Source: Verrucomicrobiota bacterium (lineage in GTDB: Bacteria > Verrucomicrobiota > Verrucomicrobiia > Verrucomicrobiales > DEV007). Taken from it: a stretch of DNA of 64,000 nucleotides. The translations under genes were made by a program, and so were the position numbers. Positions within the stretch are counted from its first letter, which is position 1. Each line of letters starts with the position of its first letter. Below, in pieces: positions 41,760 to 50,781 of the stretch. The stretch lies in the NCBI GenBank assembly GCA_018970725.1, contig JAGWVU010000007.1, positions 1 to 64,000 of the forward strand, in the 5' to 3' direction. The notes beneath the pieces are model-generated. The model was not told where the DNA came from, made no database searches, and was given only the letters and a program-made list of their open reading frames with translations.

Positions 41760-42232
41760 TCAGGTCCCTGCGGTGCAGGGAACCAGTTCGACGGCAGCTT
41801 GATCGGGGGAATCAAACATCTGTTTCAAGGTATCCAGAATGGAGCTGCCTGCCTTTCTGGCCGTTGAGATGACACTGCGAAGATCGGCGAAGAGTTCCGC
41901 GATTCTCTCGCACGGGATCATCTGGAAAGCTCCGAGATAGCTCACGAGCGCCTGCACGCCGTTACCATATTGCACCGGCGCCTGGACCCCGGCAGGAAAG
42001 GAACCCTTGACCGGAACGAGGCAGCGCGGACACTTTCCGCAGGCAACCCGATGCTCGGTGACCACGAGCTTGAGCGGCGGAAGATCGAAGACCTGGCGGC
42101 GTTCGATTCCGGTTGCCGCAGTGCCCTTGAGGCTGCCGCCACAGTTCCCGCAACATCCCCCGAAGCCGTGTTCGATAACGTGGTCGGGTTCAAGGCGCAT
42201 CTCCAGCGTGCTTCCCTTGTGTCCAGACTGTC
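41760..42232 (-). pseudogene. IS66-family transposase remnant, internally deleted
   Basis: The minus-strand frame starts abruptly at GQSGHKG and runs through EPDHVIEH, two Cys pairs (CCGNCG, CGKCPRC), RRQVFDLPPLKLVVTEHR, FPAGVQAPVQYGNGVQALVSYL and IPCERIAELFADL. These are the zinc-finger and N-terminal regions of an IS66 TnpC. It then jumps to VISTARKAGSSILDTLKQMF and stops. That last part resembles transposase C-terminal sequence, so the DDE catalytic core appears deleted. The start is also missing, because the sequence runs directly into an ISL3 fragment at about 42233. No tnpA/tnpB or terminal repeats are evident. Confidence 0.8.
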
Positions 42233-42592
42233 CTATCGGGTGATACGGGCGATCTCGGCCGCGCGGGACACCGCAGGACAGCAGGTGAGGACGAGGATGA
42301 GGCGGCGTTCCATGGCGGTAGTGAACCGGCCGTAGTCCTCCGCCCACGGGACGCGCGCCGTGACTACTTTTCCCGATGACAGTTTTATGCGGGGCACCTT
42401 GGCGACCACCCAGGTGGCGAACTCGCAGGTGTCGAGGTGTCTCCAGCGCCGTTCCCGCCAGCCGTGGACCGTGGCGCGCTCTCCGGTGTCCGGATCGGCC
42501 CAAAGCGTGCCTTCGTCGCACTCCAGCCGGGCCTCAACCGTCTTGGATGCCTCGAGGATGATGATCTCGAAAACCCTCCATACGGGACCATG
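42233..42592 (-). pseudogene. ISL3-family transposase N-terminal remnant
   Basis: One minus-strand frame with no start codon encodes an N-terminal ISL3 transposase segment: VWRVFEIIILEASKTVEARL, then GWRERRWRHLDTCEFATWV, VARVPRIKL-like AKVPRIKLSSGK, VPWAEDYGRFTTAMERR and SRAAEIARITR, ending at a TAG. The rest of the roughly 400-residue protein, including its DDE residues, is missing. The fragment is cut exactly where the IS66 remnant begins. It is inactive. Confidence 0.82.
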
Positions 42593-42735: not shown

Positions 42736-43959
42736 ATGAAACGCGCCCTCCTGTCCGCCCTCTTCTTCCTCGCCGCCCTCCCTTTGCGGGGCGAGGCTCC
42801 TGCCGCTTCCCTGCGCGGTCGTCTTGAGGCCTTCGTCGAGGACGGTTCCCTTTCCGGCGCGGTCGCCGTGCTCGCTCAAAACGACAAGATCCTCGGCGAG
42901 GAGGCGGTCGGCTACCGGGACCTTGAGTCGAAGTCGCCGATGCAGAGCGACAGCCTCTTCTGGATTGCCTCGATGACCAAACCGATCACGGCGCTGGCCG
43001 TGATGATGCTCCGGGACGAGGGCAAACTGCAGATTGGAGATCCGGTGGCGGACCACCTGCCGGAATTCAAAAACCAGATGCTCGTGCAGGAAAAAAGCGT
43101 CGACCGCGTCATTCTTGTGAAACCCGCGCACCTGGTCACGATCCGCGACCTCCTGACCCACACGAGCGGTCTCGTGGGCAATTCGCCCCTGGCCGGGGAG
43201 GCCCTTGACGCCCTCAGCCTGAAGGAGGCGGTCATCACCTACGGCCTTTCCCCCCTCCAGTTCGAGCCGGGGACGAAATGGTCCTATTGCAATCCCGGCA
43301 TCAACACCCTCGGTCGCCTCGTCGAGGTCGTCAGCGGCGAGGAATACGCCGCCTTCCTGCAGAAGCGGCTCTTTGATCCCCTCGGGATGAAAGACACGAC
43401 CTTTTGGCCGACCGAGGCGCAACTCGCCCGCCTCGCCACCAGCTATAAACCGACCGCCGACGGCAAGGACCTGGAACCGGCCCCCATCAAATACCTCACC
43501 GCACCGTATTCCAACCGGAACCGCGCCCCGTTCGCGGCCGGCGGACTGTTCTCGACCGCGGCCGATTTGCTGAAGCTCCACACCATGCTGCTCCACGGCG
43601 GCGAGTCCGGAGGGAAGCGCTACCTCTCGCCGGAATCGCTCGCCCTGATGACGACGGACCACACCGCCCCCCTGAAGTCCGGTTTCACGGAGGGGATGGG
43701 CATGGGGCTGGGCTTTCAAGTGGTGCGCCAGCCTGTCGGAGTGACCGCCACCCTGAGCAAGGGCACCTACGGTCACGGCGGAGCCCATGGAACCCAAGGC
43801 TGGATCGATCCGGAAAAGAAGGCTGTTTACCTCCTCCTGATCCAACGGGCCGGACTGAAAAACGGCGACGCCTCGCCGATGCGCCAAGCCTTCCAGGAAG
43901 CGGCGGCCGCACTTCTGGAACCCGCCAGACCGATCACGTCAAACGCAGGCCGCCCCTGA
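42736..43959 (+). CDS. Secreted class C beta-lactamase-like serine hydrolase
   Basis: The 407-residue product has a signal peptide (1-19) and the serine beta-lactamase/D-Ala-D-Ala-peptidase fold. The catalytic motifs are SMTK (79-82), YCN (184-186) and HGG (347-349, in place of KTG), the pattern of esterase EstB-like and other class C relatives. These family members include peptidases, esterases and lactamases, so resistance should not be assumed. It is followed after five bases by the caspase-like gene, probably in the same operon. Confidence 0.88.
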   Translation: MKRALLSALFFLAALPLRGEAPAASLRGRLEAFVEDGSLSGAVAVLAQNDKILGEEAVGYRDLESKSPMQSDSLFWIASMTKPITALAVMMLRDEGKLQIGDPVADHLPEFKNQMLVQEKSVDRVILVKPAHLVTIRDLLTHTSGLVGNSPLAGEALDALSLKEAVITYGLSPLQFEPGTKWSYCNPGINTLGRLVEVVSGEEYAAFLQKRLFDPLGMKDTTFWPTEAQLARLATSYKPTADGKDLEPAPIKYLTAPYSNRNRAPFAAGGLFSTAADLLKLHTMLLHGGESGGKRYLSPESLALMTTDHTAPLKSGFTEGMGMGLGFQVVRQPVGVTATLSKGTYGHGGAHGTQGWIDPEKKAVYLLLIQRAGLKNGDASPMRQAFQEAAAALLEPARPITSNAGRP

Positions 43960-43964
43960 AACCA

Positions 43965-45053
43965 ATGCGGACCATCCTTTGCCATTTCACGATCCTCCTT
44001 CTTGCCCAGTGGTGCGGCGCGCAAGAGGTCGGACGTCTGTTCTTTTTCGGGGTGGCCTACGATGAAGCCCCGCCAGAAGGCCAGACCGTGGATCATTACA
44101 ACTACGCCCCGGACAACTTCAGCGCCTTGTTCCGGGCCCAGTCGAAAGAACTCTTCCGGGAAATCAGGGAAACCACCCTGAAAGGAAAACAGGCCACCAA
44201 ACCCGCGGTCCTGCGCACTCTGCGATCTCTCCGGGAAGAGGCACGTCCCGGGGACCTCGTGTTCTTCTACTGGGGAACCCACGGGGCGACAAGTTCGGGG
44301 GATTGGGGGGCGAACCTGCCGGGCGACGGGGCGATTTCCGGCAAGGAACTCAAGGCGGAACTGGGACGGTTCCCCTGCCCTGCCGTGGTGGCCATCAGCA
44401 CCTGTGGATCGGGAGGGTTCATCCGGCCGGACGGCCAAACCGTCGACCTCCCGCCCAATGTCACCGCCTTTGCCGCCTGCCGGCCCCGGCAAACCACCAA
44501 CAATGAACTCGACATCACCCTGCTCGAAGCCCTGGCCGGCTTCGGCGATGCGGATGGAAGCGGTGACGTATCCCTGCGGGAGGTGCGGGAATACGTGCCA
44601 AAGCGTTACCGCATGCTCTCGCCCGACGACACCCTGGAAACGCTTCCCGTGCTGGGCCAGGGCGAGGGCGGAGTCTTCCGGGGAGCCCTGACACGCGTCA
44701 CCGGACGGCACGCGGCCGCGGTTCACGACGGTGCTTGGTATGGCGCCACGATCCTCGATCAATCGGAAAAATCCGTCAAAGTCCGATACCTCGGGTGGGA
44801 TCCGTTTTCACCCCGGGCCGCCTTTTTTCTGCCGGACGAACTCGTTCCCCTCCAACGGATCGATTTCGCCGGAGGAGAACCGCCGGTGGAGGTGCGGTGG
44901 AACGGGACGTGGTATCCGGCGGTGATCCTGAGCCGTGCTCCGAAAAACCGCTACCGCGTCCATTACATCGGCTATCCGCAAAGCGACGACGAGACGGTGC
45001 CGGAGGCGCGGATCCGTTTTCCCTTCGGCGGGCTTCCCGGCATTCCGGACTGA
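43965..45053 (+). CDS. Secreted caspase-like protein with EF-hand and two Tudor-like domains
   Basis: The 362-residue product has a signal peptide (1-19). Its caspase-like (peptidase C14) core has His106 in FYWGTHG and Cys147 in VVAISTCGSGG, the right order and context for a Cys/His dyad. An EF-hand-like loop follows at 195-206 (DADGSGDVSLRE). Two repeats of about 45 residues, near 250-297 and 308-352 (WYGATIL, VRYLGWD; WYPAVIL, VHYIGY), resemble Tudor-knot/Agenet domains, which bind methylated or other ligands in eukaryotes. No family I know joins all these parts. It is co-transcribed with a serine hydrolase gene. An inactive caspase homologue is possible, but the dyad looks intact. Confidence 0.8.
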   Translation: MRTILCHFTILLLAQWCGAQEVGRLFFFGVAYDEAPPEGQTVDHYNYAPDNFSALFRAQSKELFREIRETTLKGKQATKPAVLRTLRSLREEARPGDLVFFYWGTHGATSSGDWGANLPGDGAISGKELKAELGRFPCPAVVAISTCGSGGFIRPDGQTVDLPPNVTAFAACRPRQTTNNELDITLLEALAGFGDADGSGDVSLREVREYVPKRYRMLSPDDTLETLPVLGQGEGGVFRGALTRVTGRHAAAVHDGAWYGATILDQSEKSVKVRYLGWDPFSPRAAFFLPDELVPLQRIDFAGGEPPVEVRWNGTWYPAVILSRAPKNRYRVHYIGYPQSDDETVPEARIRFPFGGLPGIPD

Positions 45054-45094: not shown

Positions 45095-46003
45095 TCATGC
45101 ATAGCGTCGTGCTTCCGGCAGGGGCCTCCGTTCCTGGTCCCGCTCCCAGTGGGTTGAGGCGCGGAACTCGCGGGGGCTCACGCCCTTTTGCTCCCGAAAA
45201 CGCCGGTTGAAGTTGGAGAGATTGGAGAACCCGCTCTCCAAGGCCACTTCACTCACCGGAAGATCCGTCTCGAGGAGCAATCGGGAGGCCGTGCCGACCC
45301 GCAACTCGTGGAGATAACCCACCAAGGTCTTGCCCGTGCTGGCCTTGAAAAAACGGCAGAAAGCCGTCGGCGTGAGGTGGGCCACCGCCGCCACCTCTTC
45401 CAGCGTCACCGGTTCCGCCACCCGCTGCTGCAAATAGCGCATCACCCGGTCCATCCGCTCGATCTGCCCCGGTCGGAGCGAGGGACGATAACCGGGACTG
45501 GCCAATGGGGTGCGTTCCGCGGACCGGGCCAAATCCCGCAAGAGGAGCAAAAAGCCCGCGAACCGTTCCAACTCATCCTGCCCGGGCATCGCCAGGATCC
45601 GTTCGGCCGCTTCCCGCCGCGTCCGCCCATGGAACTCGAATCCCCGGGCGGATTCCTCGAGAAACCGGGCCACTGCGGCCATCTCCTCCCGCCCCAACAA
45701 CTCCTCCCCCAAGGTCTTGGCTGAAAATTGCAAGACCGCCACGGCGGGACGCCCCCAGTCTCCCTCGTCCGCTTCTTCCGGATGCAGGGCATGCGGCACA
45801 TTCGGGCCGTTCAGAAACAACGATCCCGGTTCCATCCGGCCGATGAAATCCCCGGAGATGTAAGTGCCCGTGTTCTTCAACACGAGGAGCAGATCGATTT
45901 CCGGATGGAAATGATAGACCGGCCAGACATCCCGATCGATCTTGAACACGAACGATCTGCGTCCACTGGTCGGGATGTATTCGAGTTGTGGCCGGACCTG
46001 CAT
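45095..46003 (-). CDS. AraC-family transcriptional regulator
   Basis: The 302-residue regulator has an N-terminal cupin sensor (VYHFHPEIDLLLVL, GSLFLNGPNVPH) and a C-terminal pair of helix-turn-helix motifs (VTLEEVAAVAHLTPTAFCRFFK; VSEVALESGFSNLSNFNRRF) with the closing VSPREFRA. The cupin probably senses a sugar. It is transcribed divergently from the PSCyt1-DUF1549-DUF1553 gene, whose 114-bp upstream region holds a direct repeat GGATC-GTATC-GGATC (46051-46065), a candidate binding site. That suggests it controls the polysaccharide-related operon. Confidence 0.9.
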   Translation of the reverse strand: MQVRPQLEYIPTSGRRSFVFKIDRDVWPVYHFHPEIDLLLVLKNTGTYISGDFIGRMEPGSLFLNGPNVPHALHPEEADEGDWGRPAVAVLQFSAKTLGEELLGREEMAAVARFLEESARGFEFHGRTRREAAERILAMPGQDELERFAGFLLLLRDLARSAERTPLASPGYRPSLRPGQIERMDRVMRYLQQRVAEPVTLEEVAAVAHLTPTAFCRFFKASTGKTLVGYLHELRVGTASRLLLETDLPVSEVALESGFSNLSNFNRRFREQKGVSPREFRASTHWERDQERRPLPEARRYA

Positions 46004-46117
46004 GAGCGTCGCTTTGCCTTCTCACTTCGGTTTCGGCCCCGAACTTGCAAGGATCGTATCGGATCCCGCGAATTCGCACGTAGCCGATTGCCCCTGAAGG
46101 CGGCATCTTGGAAGGGT

Positions 46118-49100
46118 ATGCATCCGCTTGTGCGATTCCTCCCCGGCGGCCTCCTGCTCGCCACCGCCCTCGCCGCCCCCCCGACGCCGGAGCAGACCGA
46201 GTTTTTCGAGACCAAGGTCAGACCGCTCCTTGCCGGGCAATGCCTCGACTGCCATTCCGTGGCCGCGGGAAAACAAAAAGGCGGGCTCCTGCTGGATTCC
46301 AAAGCGGGCTGGGAAACCGGCGGAGACTCCGGGCCCGCCATCGTTCCCGGCCAGGCGGCCAAAAGTCTGCTCATCTCCGCGGTCAAGCGCTCGGGGGAAC
46401 GGGTGGAAGCGATGCCGCCCAAAAAGGCCCTCTCCGCGGAGGAAATCGCCCTGCTGGAACAATGGATCGACATGGGGGCTCCCGATCCCCGGCCCAAAGT
46501 GGAAGCCACCGGCGCCCTGGTGAAGACCTTTGATATCTCCAAGCGCAAGGCCGGACACTGGTGCTGGCAGCCGGTCTCCCGCCCCGTGCCCCCGACGGTC
46601 CGGCACGCGGATTGGCCGCGCCAACCGATTGATTCCTTCATCTTGCACCGCCTTGAATCCGCCGGTCTCCGCCCCGCGCCGCCGGCGGATCCGCGGACCT
46701 TGACCCGGCGGCTCTATCTGGACGTGACCGGTCTTCCCCCCTCCCCGGCGGATTTCGCCCGTCATGGGGTGGACGGTCCGGGATTCGATGCCGCCAAGGT
46801 GGTGGATGAACTGCTCGCCTCACCGCGTTTCGGTGAAAAATGGGCCCGTCACTGGATGGATCTGGTGCGTTATGCCGAAACCTGCGGCCATGAGTTCGAC
46901 TATGAGATCCCCAATGCCTGGCGTTACCGGGATTACCTGATCCGGGCCTTGAATCTGGACCTTCCTTACGACGTCTTCGTGCGGGAACACATCGCCGGGG
47001 ATCTGCTCGCGGAGCCGCGACGGCATCTGGTCGACCAGAGCAACGAGTCCGTGCTGGCCACCGGATTCTGGTATTTTCATGAAGCGGTGCACGCCCCCAC
47101 CGATGTCCGGCTCGACGAGGCGGAGCGGATGAACAACCAGATCGACGTATTCGGCAAGACGTTCCAAGGCCTCACCATTGCCTGCGCCCGCTGCCACGAC
47201 CACAAGTTCGATGCGATTTCCACCGCGGATTACTACGCGCTGACCGGTTATCTCCGCGGCACCTGCCGGACCGATTCCGTGGTGGACCCGGGCCGGCAAC
47301 GGGAGATCGCCGCCCGGGCGCAACTCGCTCTCCGCGCCCAGGCGATCCCCGTCCTCAGCCGCAAGGCCTCCCCCGGAAACGCATTCCTCGCCGCGCACGA
47401 TCTCGTCCGGGCCCGGATCGAGACCGGGGAGGCACAGGTCCAGCCGGATGCCGACGTCATCGCCAAAACGGCCGCGGAACGTGAGATGGATGCGGACCAG
47501 CTCGCCGCCTGGTGCCGCCTCCTCGCCGCCGAACCCTCAGAGCCCCGCACCCCGGCCGGTTTCTGGAGCTCGTGGGTCCGCAAACCGGAAATCCTGCCCG
47601 GCCTGGCGTCGGAGGCCCGCAACGCCCGGCAAAGTCTGGCGCGGTTCCGTCAGGAAACCGAGCTTTTCGCGGATTTTTCCGGGTCGTCGCTGCCCACCGG
47701 ATGGACCACCACCGGCCAGGCTTGGCAGCCGTCCGGTCCCCAGCCCGGCGCCGCTTTTTCCAGCGGTCACCCGGTCAGTTCCCCCGGCATGGTTTCCAGT
47801 GCGCTGCTGGGCGAGGCCCACGTCGGCACCCTGCGCTCCCCCACCTTCCCCACGCCGACACCGCAGATCCATATCCGCATGCGCTCGGATCAGGTGCTGG
47901 CCCGGGTCGTCACCGCAAACTACCACATGGCGGCTTTCAGCCGGCTCCTCTTCGGCGGGACCATCCGTTCCAAGGACGAGACGGCGACGGGTGATACCTT
48001 CCGTTGGATCAGCCTGGAGGGCGACCTCCGGAAATACGTGGGCCAGAATTCCTACCTTGAGTTCGTCGACAGCGGGAACGGGCACGCCACCATCGACGAA
48101 ATCCGTTTTTCCAACGGCCCGCGGCCTCCGGCGGAATTTCCGGCGCTCCTTGACCGCCTGCTGGCGGATGGCGGGGCGGCCCCGGCCGGGGCGTCCGACC
48201 TGGCCGGGCGGCTCGACGCCCTTTGGCAGGAAGAGGTGGAAGGACGGGGCGACGCGGCGGTGCTCGACTGGCTCCTCGGGCAAGAGCTGGTGCCGGGGAC
48301 GGAAGCGAAGGATTTCCGTGCCGTGGTCGCGCAAGGGGCCACGCTGGCCGCCAAACTCCCCGCCCCCCAGTTTGCCCTCACCATGGCGCAGGGCACTCCG
48401 GAAAACGGGTTCATCTCCATCCGGGGCAGTCACCTGAACCGGGGAGCGGAGGTTCCCAACCGCTATCTGGAAGCGCTCGGAGGGGAGCGGGGAACCCGGC
48501 TTGACCTGGCCGGCCAGATCGTCTCCACCGGAAATCCCCTTGCCGCCCGCGTCATGGTCAACCGGCTTTGGCATCACCTCTTCGACCGCGGCCTGGTCCG
48601 AACGGTGGATGATTTCGGGGTGCTCGGCGAAACCCCGAGTCACCCGGAACTGCTCGACTGGTTGGCCCGGGATTTTATGGAGCACGGCTGGTCGGTAAAG
48701 CGCAGCCTGCGTCAGATGCTGCTCTCAGCAACCTACGCGCAGGCTTCCACGGCGCATCCGGAGCTCGATTCCAAGGTCATCGCGCGGGTGGATCCCGCCA
48801 ACGTCCTGCTCCACCGGGCCCCGGTCCGGCGCCTCACCGCCGAGGAAATCCGGGATGCGATCCTTGCGGTATCCGGGCGTCTCGATCCCACCGCCTTCGG
48901 TCCTGCGGTGCCCACCTACCGCAGCGCCTTCATGACCGGGCGCGGTGCCCGTCCGAGCGGACCGCTCGATGGCGCGGGAAGGCGCACCGTCTATCTTTCA
49001 GTCTACCGCAACTTCCTCAACCCGATGCTGCTCGCGTTCGATATGCCGAATCCGTTCGGGCCCAAGGGCAGGCGAGGGACGTCGAACGTGCCCGCCCAAG

Positions 49101-49369
49101 CCCTGACCCTGCTCAACGATCCCTTCGTCCTCGAGCAAGCCGCTTACTGGGCCTCACACGAGACCTCGGCCCCCTCGCTGGCTCCCGGCGAGCGTCTCGC
49201 GGTCATGCTGGAGCGCGCCACCGGGGACCTCCCCGAGGCCCGTGAACTGAACCGGCTCCAAGCCTTCTGGCAGGCCCAGACCGCGGCCTGCCAAGGCGAT
49301 GCCCAGCGCGCCTGGACCGACGTGGCCCATCTCTTGTTCAACACGAAGGACTTCCTCTACATCCGATGA
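46118..49369 (+). CDS. PSCyt1-DUF1549-DUF1553 multidomain protein
   Basis: The 1083-residue protein has a signal peptide (about 1-20), a planctomycete-type cytochrome c domain (CLDCH 42-46) and DUF1549 with KWARHWMDLVRYAET and a second CARCH (356-360). A middle beta-rich region (about 520-690) is followed by a C-terminal DUF1553 (VMVNRLWHHLFDRGLVRTVDDFG, then NFLNPMLLAFDMPNPFG and VPAQALTLLNDPFV). This architecture is a hallmark of Planctomycetes and Verrucomicrobia and is often associated with sulfated polysaccharide use. The ATG at 46118 has GGAAGG close upstream. It overlaps the DUF1501 gene by four bases (ATGA). Confidence 0.92.
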   Translation: MHPLVRFLPGGLLLATALAAPPTPEQTEFFETKVRPLLAGQCLDCHSVAAGKQKGGLLLDSKAGWETGGDSGPAIVPGQAAKSLLISAVKRSGERVEAMPPKKALSAEEIALLEQWIDMGAPDPRPKVEATGALVKTFDISKRKAGHWCWQPVSRPVPPTVRHADWPRQPIDSFILHRLESAGLRPAPPADPRTLTRRLYLDVTGLPPSPADFARHGVDGPGFDAAKVVDELLASPRFGEKWARHWMDLVRYAETCGHEFDYEIPNAWRYRDYLIRALNLDLPYDVFVREHIAGDLLAEPRRHLVDQSNESVLATGFWYFHEAVHAPTDVRLDEAERMNNQIDVFGKTFQGLTIACARCHDHKFDAISTADYYALTGYLRGTCRTDSVVDPGRQREIAARAQLALRAQAIPVLSRKASPGNAFLAAHDLVRARIETGEAQVQPDADVIAKTAAEREMDADQLAAWCRLLAAEPSEPRTPAGFWSSWVRKPEILPGLASEARNARQSLARFRQETELFADFSGSSLPTGWTTTGQAWQPSGPQPGAAFSSGHPVSSPGMVSSALLGEAHVGTLRSPTFPTPTPQIHIRMRSDQVLARVVTANYHMAAFSRLLFGGTIRSKDETATGDTFRWISLEGDLRKYVGQNSYLEFVDSGNGHATIDEIRFSNGPRPPAEFPALLDRLLADGGAAPAGASDLAGRLDALWQEEVEGRGDAAVLDWLLGQELVPGTEAKDFRAVVAQGATLAAKLPAPQFALTMAQGTPENGFISIRGSHLNRGAEVPNRYLEALGGERGTRLDLAGQIVSTGNPLAARVMVNRLWHHLFDRGLVRTVDDFGVLGETPSHPELLDWLARDFMEHGWSVKRSLRQMLLSATYAQASTAHPELDSKVIARVDPANVLLHRAPVRRLTAEEIRDAILAVSGRLDPTAFGPAVPTYRSAFMTGRGARPSGPLDGAGRRTVYLSVYRNFLNPMLLAFDMPNPFGPKGRRGTSNVPAQALTLLNDPFVLEQAAYWASHETSAPSLAPGERLAVMLERATGDLPEARELNRLQAFWQAQTAACQGDAQRAWTDVAHLLFNTKDFLYIR

Positions 49370-50781
49370 AACCCTCCCATCATTGCCAACGCTTCGCGCC
49401 TCCGTCTCCTTCGCGTCGCGCCATGCTCCGCCATTGCGCCCTGGGCTTCGGCGGGGTTGCTCTCCAAGCGTTGCAACAAGCAGCCGCCGGCCCCGTCGCC
49501 CCGCATTTTCCGGCCCGGGCGCGCCACGTGATTTTCCTCTATATGGACGGAGGCCCCTCGCAGGTGGATACCTTCGACTACAAACCCGCCCTCGCCAAAT
49601 ACGACGGTCAGGATCCGCGTCAGGTCATTGGAGCCCTGGCACCGACCCAATTCGACAACGTCGGAAAGCTCCTCAAGAACCAGTGGGAGTTCAAACAGCA
49701 CGGTCAGGCCGGGCATTGGATCAGCTCGTTGTTTCCTCACCTGTCCACCGTTGCCGATGAGTTGGCCGTCGTGAAATCGATGACCTCGAGATTTCCCGAA
49801 CATACTTCCGCGAATTATTTCCTGCATACCGGCAGCGGCTTGCAGGGCCGCCCCAGCATGGGCGCGTGGGCCGGCTATGGGCTGGGCTCGGAGAATGACA
49901 ATCTTCCCGGTTTCATCGTCCTCAACGGCGGACTCATCCCGCCCGGAGGTCTCGATTGCTTCGGCTCCGGTTTCCTTCCCGCCACCTATCAAGGATCCAT
50001 CTTCCTGCCGAAGCCTGAGCCCATCGCCAACATCCAACCCCTGGAACCGTCCAAGGCCTTGCAACGCAACAAACTGGATGCCTTGCGCGACCTCGATGCC
50101 GCCACGCTGGAAGAGTCCGGCCATGACCGGGAGATCGATGCCGCCATCAAGAATTATGAAACCGCTTTCCGGATGCAGTCCGCGGTCCCGGAATTGATGG
50201 ATCTGCGCGGGGAATCCGAAGCGGTAAAGACGCTCTACGGAATGAGCGCCGCGTATCCCAACACGCGCACCTTCGCGCTGCAATGCCTCATCGCCCGCCG
50301 CCTTGTGGAACGCGGAGTCCGCTTCATTGAGCTGACTTGTCCCAACGGAAACGGGGACCGCTGGGATCAACACGGAAACCTCATCGAAGGACACAACAAG
50401 AATTGTGTCACCGTGGATCAACCGATCGCCGCCCTCATCACCGATCTCAAACGGCTCGGTCTTCTCGAAACCACCTTGCTCGTCTGGGCCGGGGAATTCG
50501 GACGCACACCTTTCGCCCAAGGCACCAACGGGCGGGATCACAACCAGTTCGGATTCACCATCTGGATGGCGGGCGGCGGGGTCAAGCCCGGCGTGTCGGT
50601 CGGACGCACCGATGACTTCGGTTACAAAGCCGTGGAGGACCGCTTTGAGATCCATGATCTCCATGCCACCATGTTGCACCTGCTGGGGATCGAACACACC
50701 AAAAGCACCTTCCGGTTCGGCGGGCGGGACATGCGCCTCACCGATGTCCACGGGCACCTCATGCATCAGGTGATCGCCTGA
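49366..50781 (+). CDS. DUF1501 secreted protein, Tat signal
   Basis: The 471-residue product has a twin-arginine signal (SRRAMLRHCALGFGG) and is a DUF1501 protein of the alkaline-phosphatase/sulfatase superfamily. Landmarks are HVIFLYMDGGPSQVDTFDYKP, SSLFPHLSTVADELAVVKSM, HGTSRFPEHTSAN-like segments, VWAGEFGRTPFAQGTNGRDH and DLHATMLHLLGIEH. The metal-binding pattern fits a hydrolase, but no substrate is proven. Almost every DUF1501 gene follows a DUF1549-DUF1553 gene, as here with a four-base overlap. Confidence 0.92.
   Translation: MKPSHHCQRFAPPSPSRRAMLRHCALGFGGVALQALQQAAAGPVAPHFPARARHVIFLYMDGGPSQVDTFDYKPALAKYDGQDPRQVIGALAPTQFDNVGKLLKNQWEFKQHGQAGHWISSLFPHLSTVADELAVVKSMTSRFPEHTSANYFLHTGSGLQGRPSMGAWAGYGLGSENDNLPGFIVLNGGLIPPGGLDCFGSGFLPATYQGSIFLPKPEPIANIQPLEPSKALQRNKLDALRDLDAATLEESGHDREIDAAIKNYETAFRMQSAVPELMDLRGESEAVKTLYGMSAAYPNTRTFALQCLIARRLVERGVRFIELTCPNGNGDRWDQHGNLIEGHNKNCVTVDQPIAALITDLKRLGLLETTLLVWAGEFGRTPFAQGTNGRDHNQFGFTIWMAGGGVKPGVSVGRTDDFGYKAVEDRFEIHDLHATMLHLLGIEHTKSTFRFGGRDMRLTDVHGHLMHQVIA

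Follow-up and report, generated by a model that had tools for sequence, protein, structure and literature searches.

The window analysed here, the whole stretch of 64,000 nucleotides from a contig of a Verrucomicrobiota bacterium, contains an open reading frame that occupies exactly positions 43965-45053 of the forward strand, starts with ATG and encodes 362 amino acids. The encoded protein carries a signal peptide, a predicted caspase-fold domain that includes an EF-hand-type loop, and two repeats of the chromo-barrel/Agenet kind, and its gene lies immediately downstream of one for a serine hydrolase. The features of the two genes are:

42736..43959, plus strand: exported beta-lactamase-family serine hydrolase, 5 bp upstream of the next gene (PF00144, 248.6 bits; SMTK, YCN and HGG motifs)
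43965..45053, plus strand: exported caspase-like protein with two chromo-barrel/Agenet repeats (open reading frame, translation, dN/dS 0.15)
43965..44021, plus strand: Sec-type signal peptide, residues 1-19, predicted cleavage between CGA and QEV (read by eye from the sequence)
44031..44624, plus strand: predicted caspase-fold (clan CD, C14-like) domain, about residues 23-220 (profile matches, low-confidence model)
44280..44282, plus strand: predicted catalytic His106, motif GTHG, codon CAC (invariant in 12 relatives; metacaspase catalytic His column)
44397..44399, plus strand: Ser145, two positions ahead of the catalytic Cys, where metacaspases and paracaspases have their S1-pocket Asp (clade census)
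44403..44405, plus strand: predicted catalytic Cys147, motif STCGSGG, codon TGT (invariant in 12 relatives; column of AtMC4 C139)
44547..44582, plus strand: EF-hand-type 12-residue loop, D195-E206, inside the caspase domain (conservation, profile)
44700..44864, plus strand: chromo-barrel/Agenet repeat 1, residues 246-300, putative cage H254, Y259, Y275, W278 (second Agenet stretch, tandem Tudor matches over 258-357, cage census)
44871..45020, plus strand: chromo-barrel/Agenet repeat 2, residues 303-352, putative cage W312, Y317, Y334, Y337 (Agenet, Tudor-knot, model)

The gene is real and under purifying selection in every domain. Measured against a relative with 77% identity, dN/dS is 0.15 overall and 0.13, 0.22 and 0.10 for the caspase domain, repeat 1 and repeat 2, respectively, and these low values, along with the invariance of H106, G107, C147, S149, G150 and D195 in the 12 relatives, speak against a chance reading frame. 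Equivalent signal peptides, likewise read by eye, are present in the two closest relatives, with cleavage after CGA and before QEAA in L011 and after ASA and before AEP in L013. The preliminary description had proposed the order signal peptide, caspase fold with His106 and Cys147, calcium-type loop and two Tudor-type repeats, and both that order and the numbering of the dyad proved right. PHROGs and NCBIfam returned nothing for the protein, and since the PADLOC match was weak and generic (caspase, E 4e-4), no defence assignment was made. A promoter scan also found nothing, which does not argue against a promoter of another type.

The comparisons rest on 12 proteins with a caspase domain followed by barrels, whose alignment (A3) served as a search profile. 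Three of them form what we call the window clade, namely the window protein, L011 from the Verrucomicrobia MAG V1-115 (77% identical) and L013 from genome G016 of the same family (about 60% identical). More distant relatives, in which the caspase domain precedes two or three barrels, occur in Verrucomicrobiota (L023, L024), and the same order recurs in Myxococcota (L012, L049, L050, L051, L052, L054 and L055); in another protein, L053, the sequence breaks off where the contig ends. Pfam, with E values up to 0.1, recognised a caspase domain in 10 of the 12 and Agenet and Tudor-knot domains in 9 each, and the residues invariant across the set are Y102, H106, G107, C147, S149, G150, G192, D195, G247, E343 and R349. 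Among the Myxococcota proteins, three barrels are present in L049 and L052; a Tat-like signal is seen in L012 and L049, and no obvious export signal in L050 and L051. Four other Myxococcota proteins (L058, L061, L063 and L069) match the barrel part of the profile only; they seem to be short proteins or membrane proteins that have tandem Agenet repeats but no caspase. Viral contigs searched for relatives yielded none, and plasmid records searched with a Myxococcota relative gave no match.

The caspase domain of the window protein is too divergent to be matched by PF00656, and a scan of its own genome with that model listed six other loci (among them C9:83516-84154 of G000; one of the six lies some 20 kb beyond the end of the window), this gene not being among them. 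For Baltic Sea Verrucomicrobia, metacaspase genes were reported to be scarce or missing (PMC4933709). The 12-protein profile matched metacaspase-4 (AtMC4) at E 2e-14, GSU0716 at 3e-9 and TbMCA2 at 1e-8, and the profile of a second alignment (A1), dominated by the window clade, matched GSU0716 and metacaspase-4 at about 5e-5. A full-length AlphaFold model built from three sequences was poor (mean pLDDT 53), and active-site distances were not read from it; its first 220 residues, at this low confidence, aligned with AtMC4 at Z 11.0 over 173 residues. Profiles and model together indicate a caspase p20-like fold, as in C14 caspase-like peptidases. The profile alignment places the invariant H106 and C147 on the metacaspase dyad, and its register is fixed because the column of the predicted catalytic Cys is the Ala of the AtMC4 C139A mutant chain. 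The motifs around them are GTHG and STCGSGG, where AGHG and D-x-C-x-S-G are usual. Two further cysteines, C138 (44376-44378) and C172 (44478-44480), are non-catalytic, conserved in all three members of the window clade and apparently absent from the other fusions in the alignment; it is possible that they form a disulphide in the oxidising compartment that an exported protein would enter.

The window clade also departs from other caspases at Ser145. The position two before the Cys is Ser in 3/3 members of the window clade, Asp in all nine other fusions, and Asp in each of the 39 bacterial caspases of a wider fetched sample. Asp211 of TbMCA2 and Asp462 of MALT1 have been named as S1-pocket residues (PMC4357240). 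The C213A chain of TbMCA2 (4afr) fits Asp211 at this position. Both of these residues sit two before the catalytic Cys. Since the acid is replaced by Ser145, the window clade lacks the acidic S1 residue that goes with basic P1 preference in metacaspase- and orthocaspase-like (C14B) enzymes, and it is predicted to have lost the preference for Arg or Lys at P1. Residue 52 of the window protein is Phe, at a position occupied by Asp in the other fusions. We do not claim from this that the second S1 acid, the helix-1 residue corresponding to Asp95 of TbMCA2, has gone as well, because the register of that helix against TbMCA2 is ambiguous by one residue.

The repeats carry the motifs WYGA...YLG (258-277) and WYPA...YIG (316-336). 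In Pfam the protein matched Agenet in two stretches (37.6 bits, cutoff 27) and Tudor-knot just over its cutoff (22.2 bits against 20.8). Modelled alone, repeat 2 reached a pLDDT of 86.4 and is predicted to fold as an MRG-type chromo-barrel, a kind of domain that in eukaryotes reads methylated lysine. Its best structural matches are MRG2, MRG15, RBBP1 and Tbtudor; the Foldseek list is headed by MRG2, MRG701, Tbtudor and MRG15, with the weak E values of a domain of this length (best 0.009), and VIA-align superposed 51 of 57 residues on AtMRG2 at Z 9.2 and an rmsd of 1.4 A. The fact that unrelated myosins reached Z 7.9 in VIA-align leaves the structural margin alone modest, but sequence and Pfam agree with it. 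The matched MRG2 structures are those bound to H3K4me3 and H3K36me3. For repeat 1, sequence and the tandem Tudor profile support a similar barrel, as the pair aligns by profile with the tandem Tudors of FXR1, FXR2, FMRP and SGF29. The Tudor assignment made earlier is thus substantiated, in repeat 2 by the kind of structure prediction that had been suggested as a check. The aromatic cage of MRG701 consists of H37, Y42, Y62, W65 and W69 (PMC5084153), to which correspond, by motif position, the four residues listed above for each repeat, in that order; the fifth position is taken by Ser in the first repeat and by D341 in the second. Four of the five cage positions are therefore kept in each repeat, and the fifth aromatic is lost in both; the last cage Trp is kept in most repeats of the Myxococcota relatives.

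The upstream hydrolase has a signal peptide and intact SxxK, YxN and HGG motifs, and it is probably co-transcribed with the caspase gene. Farther upstream, an open reading frame on the minus strand (41760-42521) matches the zinc-finger domain of IS66 transposases (31.4 bits, cutoff 27.3) with no other transposase domain found, and is probably an IS66 remnant. Downstream lies an AraC-type regulator on the minus strand (45095-46003), convergent with the caspase gene, that could regulate the neighbourhood. Positions 45728-50781 of the plus strand encode a large cytochrome-like protein with a CxxCH motif, and the gene after it overlaps it by 4 bases; by eye, the two resemble the PSCyt/DUF1501 pairs that are frequent in Planctomycetes and Verrucomicrobia.

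Taking these observations together, we propose a Sec-exported caspase-fold cysteine endopeptidase docked by its two MRG/Agenet-type barrels and cutting proteins of the envelope or matrix, a reading that we regard as evenly balanced between right and wrong. Sec export would probably place the enzyme in the periplasm. The two C-terminal barrels would attach it to peptides or matrix whose side chains are cationic and probably methylated, and at that site H106/C147 would cleave envelope proteins or those of the extracellular matrix. We infer catalytic activity, recognition of methylated lysine- or arginine-like groups by the cages, and delivery of the protease to its substrate through docking. The tethering mechanism would be that proposed by Kaur, Iyer, Subramanian and Aravind in 2018, that chromo-like domains anchor enzymes on murein or matrix peptides carrying methylated-lysine-like groups (PMC5906684), applied here to this protein; that the role was proposed for the published architecture counts in its favour. 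The strict retention of His and Cys in relatives from two phyla, purifying selection in each domain and the signal peptides of the clade all favour a tethered protease, as do the profile matches to active metacaspases on one side and to MRG, MBT and tandem Tudor readers on the other, the likeness of repeat 2 to methyl-histone-bound MRG2 and the cage aromatics kept. The lost fifth aromatic, the atypical GTHG and STCGSGG motifs, the poor full-length model and the want of an obvious signal peptide in L050 and L051 count against it. We also know of no substrate or methylated envelope protein in the source organism, which is a further point against the proposal.

A sensor, the kind of role suggested in the preliminary description, would have the barrels keep the protease inactive until binding of a ligand or calcium frees it, with self-cleavage. 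In its favour is the EF-type loop D195-A-D197-G-S199-G-D201-V-S203-L-R-E206, which is borne out by EF-hand spacing with the ligand positions present, by D195 and an acid (E or D) at 206 in 12/12 relatives and by a match of the 12-protein profile to EF-hand proteins (E 4e-5), although it falls below the Pfam EF-hand cutoffs and its flanks lie in a stretch of pLDDT below 50. The same pattern follows the catalytic Cys in 15 of the 39 fetched bacterial caspases, including ones without barrels, and because ordinary bacterial caspases carry it the loop is a general feature and no special clue. Metacaspases are commonly calcium-activated (PMC4357240, PMC5756287), but orthocaspases without a p10 are calcium-independent (PMC5756287), and no linker or cleavage site is recognisable in the window protein, so that we consider a sensor unlikely. 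That the caspase and the upstream hydrolase make a two-enzyme exported unit, as had also been suggested, agrees with their 5-bp gap, common strand and predicted export, and fusions of chromo-like to beta-lactamase domains have been reported elsewhere (PMC5906684). However, the gene next upstream in L011 is, judged by eye, divergent and CorA-like, that in L013 is a different one, and the hydrolase homologue of G016, 73% identical, lies on another contig. In the two relatives examined, then, the pairing is local and not conserved, and we hold out very little prospect for such a unit.

Two other explanations concern the activity of either half of the protein. The altered motifs could mark a pseudo-protease, a non-catalytic binding module or scaffold, in keeping with GTHG for AGHG, the Ser that replaces Asp in the whole window clade and the failure of PF00656 to match the protein. 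Yet His and Cys are strictly kept and the dN/dS of the caspase domain is low, while known pseudo-orthocaspases lose the dyad itself (PMC6426788); a scaffold is thus quite improbable. The barrels might instead bind nucleic acid or matrix polymers and not methylated peptides, since Tudor-knot and some chromo and Tudor domains bind RNA or DNA (PMC5906684) and the fifth aromatic is gone, but the retention of four cage aromatics per repeat makes this highly improbable.

The tethered protease preferred here belongs to a known architecture. Kaur et al. counted the caspase as one of the most frequent partners of the chromo-like domains that bacteria secrete, and named planctomycetes, cyanobacteria, Bacteroidetes and Chloroflexi for the combination (PMC5906684), from such exported bacterial proteins chromo-like domains being thought to have entered eukaryotes (PMC5906684). 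Like those proteins, the window protein combines a signal peptide, a caspase domain and chromo-like repeats, and its tandem barrels keep a subset of the cage residues. The domain order, thought unusual at the outset, is therefore a published and common linkage, and it was found again here in other Verrucomicrobiota and in Myxococcota. The protein is a somewhat divergent addition to an already described architecture, in a phylum unnamed there for it, and differs in that its clade has Ser145 and is without the fifth cage aromatic. Compared with the C14B metacaspases and orthocaspases AtMC4, TbMCA2 and GSU0716 (3bij), it appears to share the p20-type fold and the His-Cys dyad, by profile and weak model, but is without the Cys-minus-2 acid and a recognisable activation linker and has GTHG and C-terminal barrels. 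The chromo-barrels of AtMRG2, MRG15 and MRG701 resemble those of the window protein in predicted fold (Z 8-9, 1.2-2.1 A) and in four of the five cage residues, whereas the window protein's barrels sit in an exported bacterial protease and its repeat 1 has an 8-residue insert. The tandem Agenet/Tudor domains of FMRP, FXR1 and FXR2, two adjacent barrels, align across residues 258-357 of the window protein, which has no KH domains.

The window clade stands out in escaping the Pfam caspase model, in being without the Cys-minus-2 Asp and in grouping outside the main caspase-Agenet clade. In a tree of caspase domains that main fusion clade is strongly supported (99/99), and the window clade forms a long branch whose weakly supported (87/72) neighbours are unfused caspases from the same family; a single origin of all fusions is not rejected (AU p 0.22). 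That the window clade joined caspase to tandem chromo-barrels independently of the main Myxococcota/Verrucomicrobiota clade, and lost the acidic S1 site, is a doubtful proposition. If true, it would mean that a reader-targeted protease of the envelope had been built by convergence and had a new specificity of cleavage. The missing S1 acid offers a specific, testable prediction on cleavage specificity in bacterial caspases. To our knowledge there is no known ligand for any bacterial chromo-like domain, and this protein, which is small and exported and combines two cage-bearing barrels with a protease as readout, would be a tractable system in which to find one.
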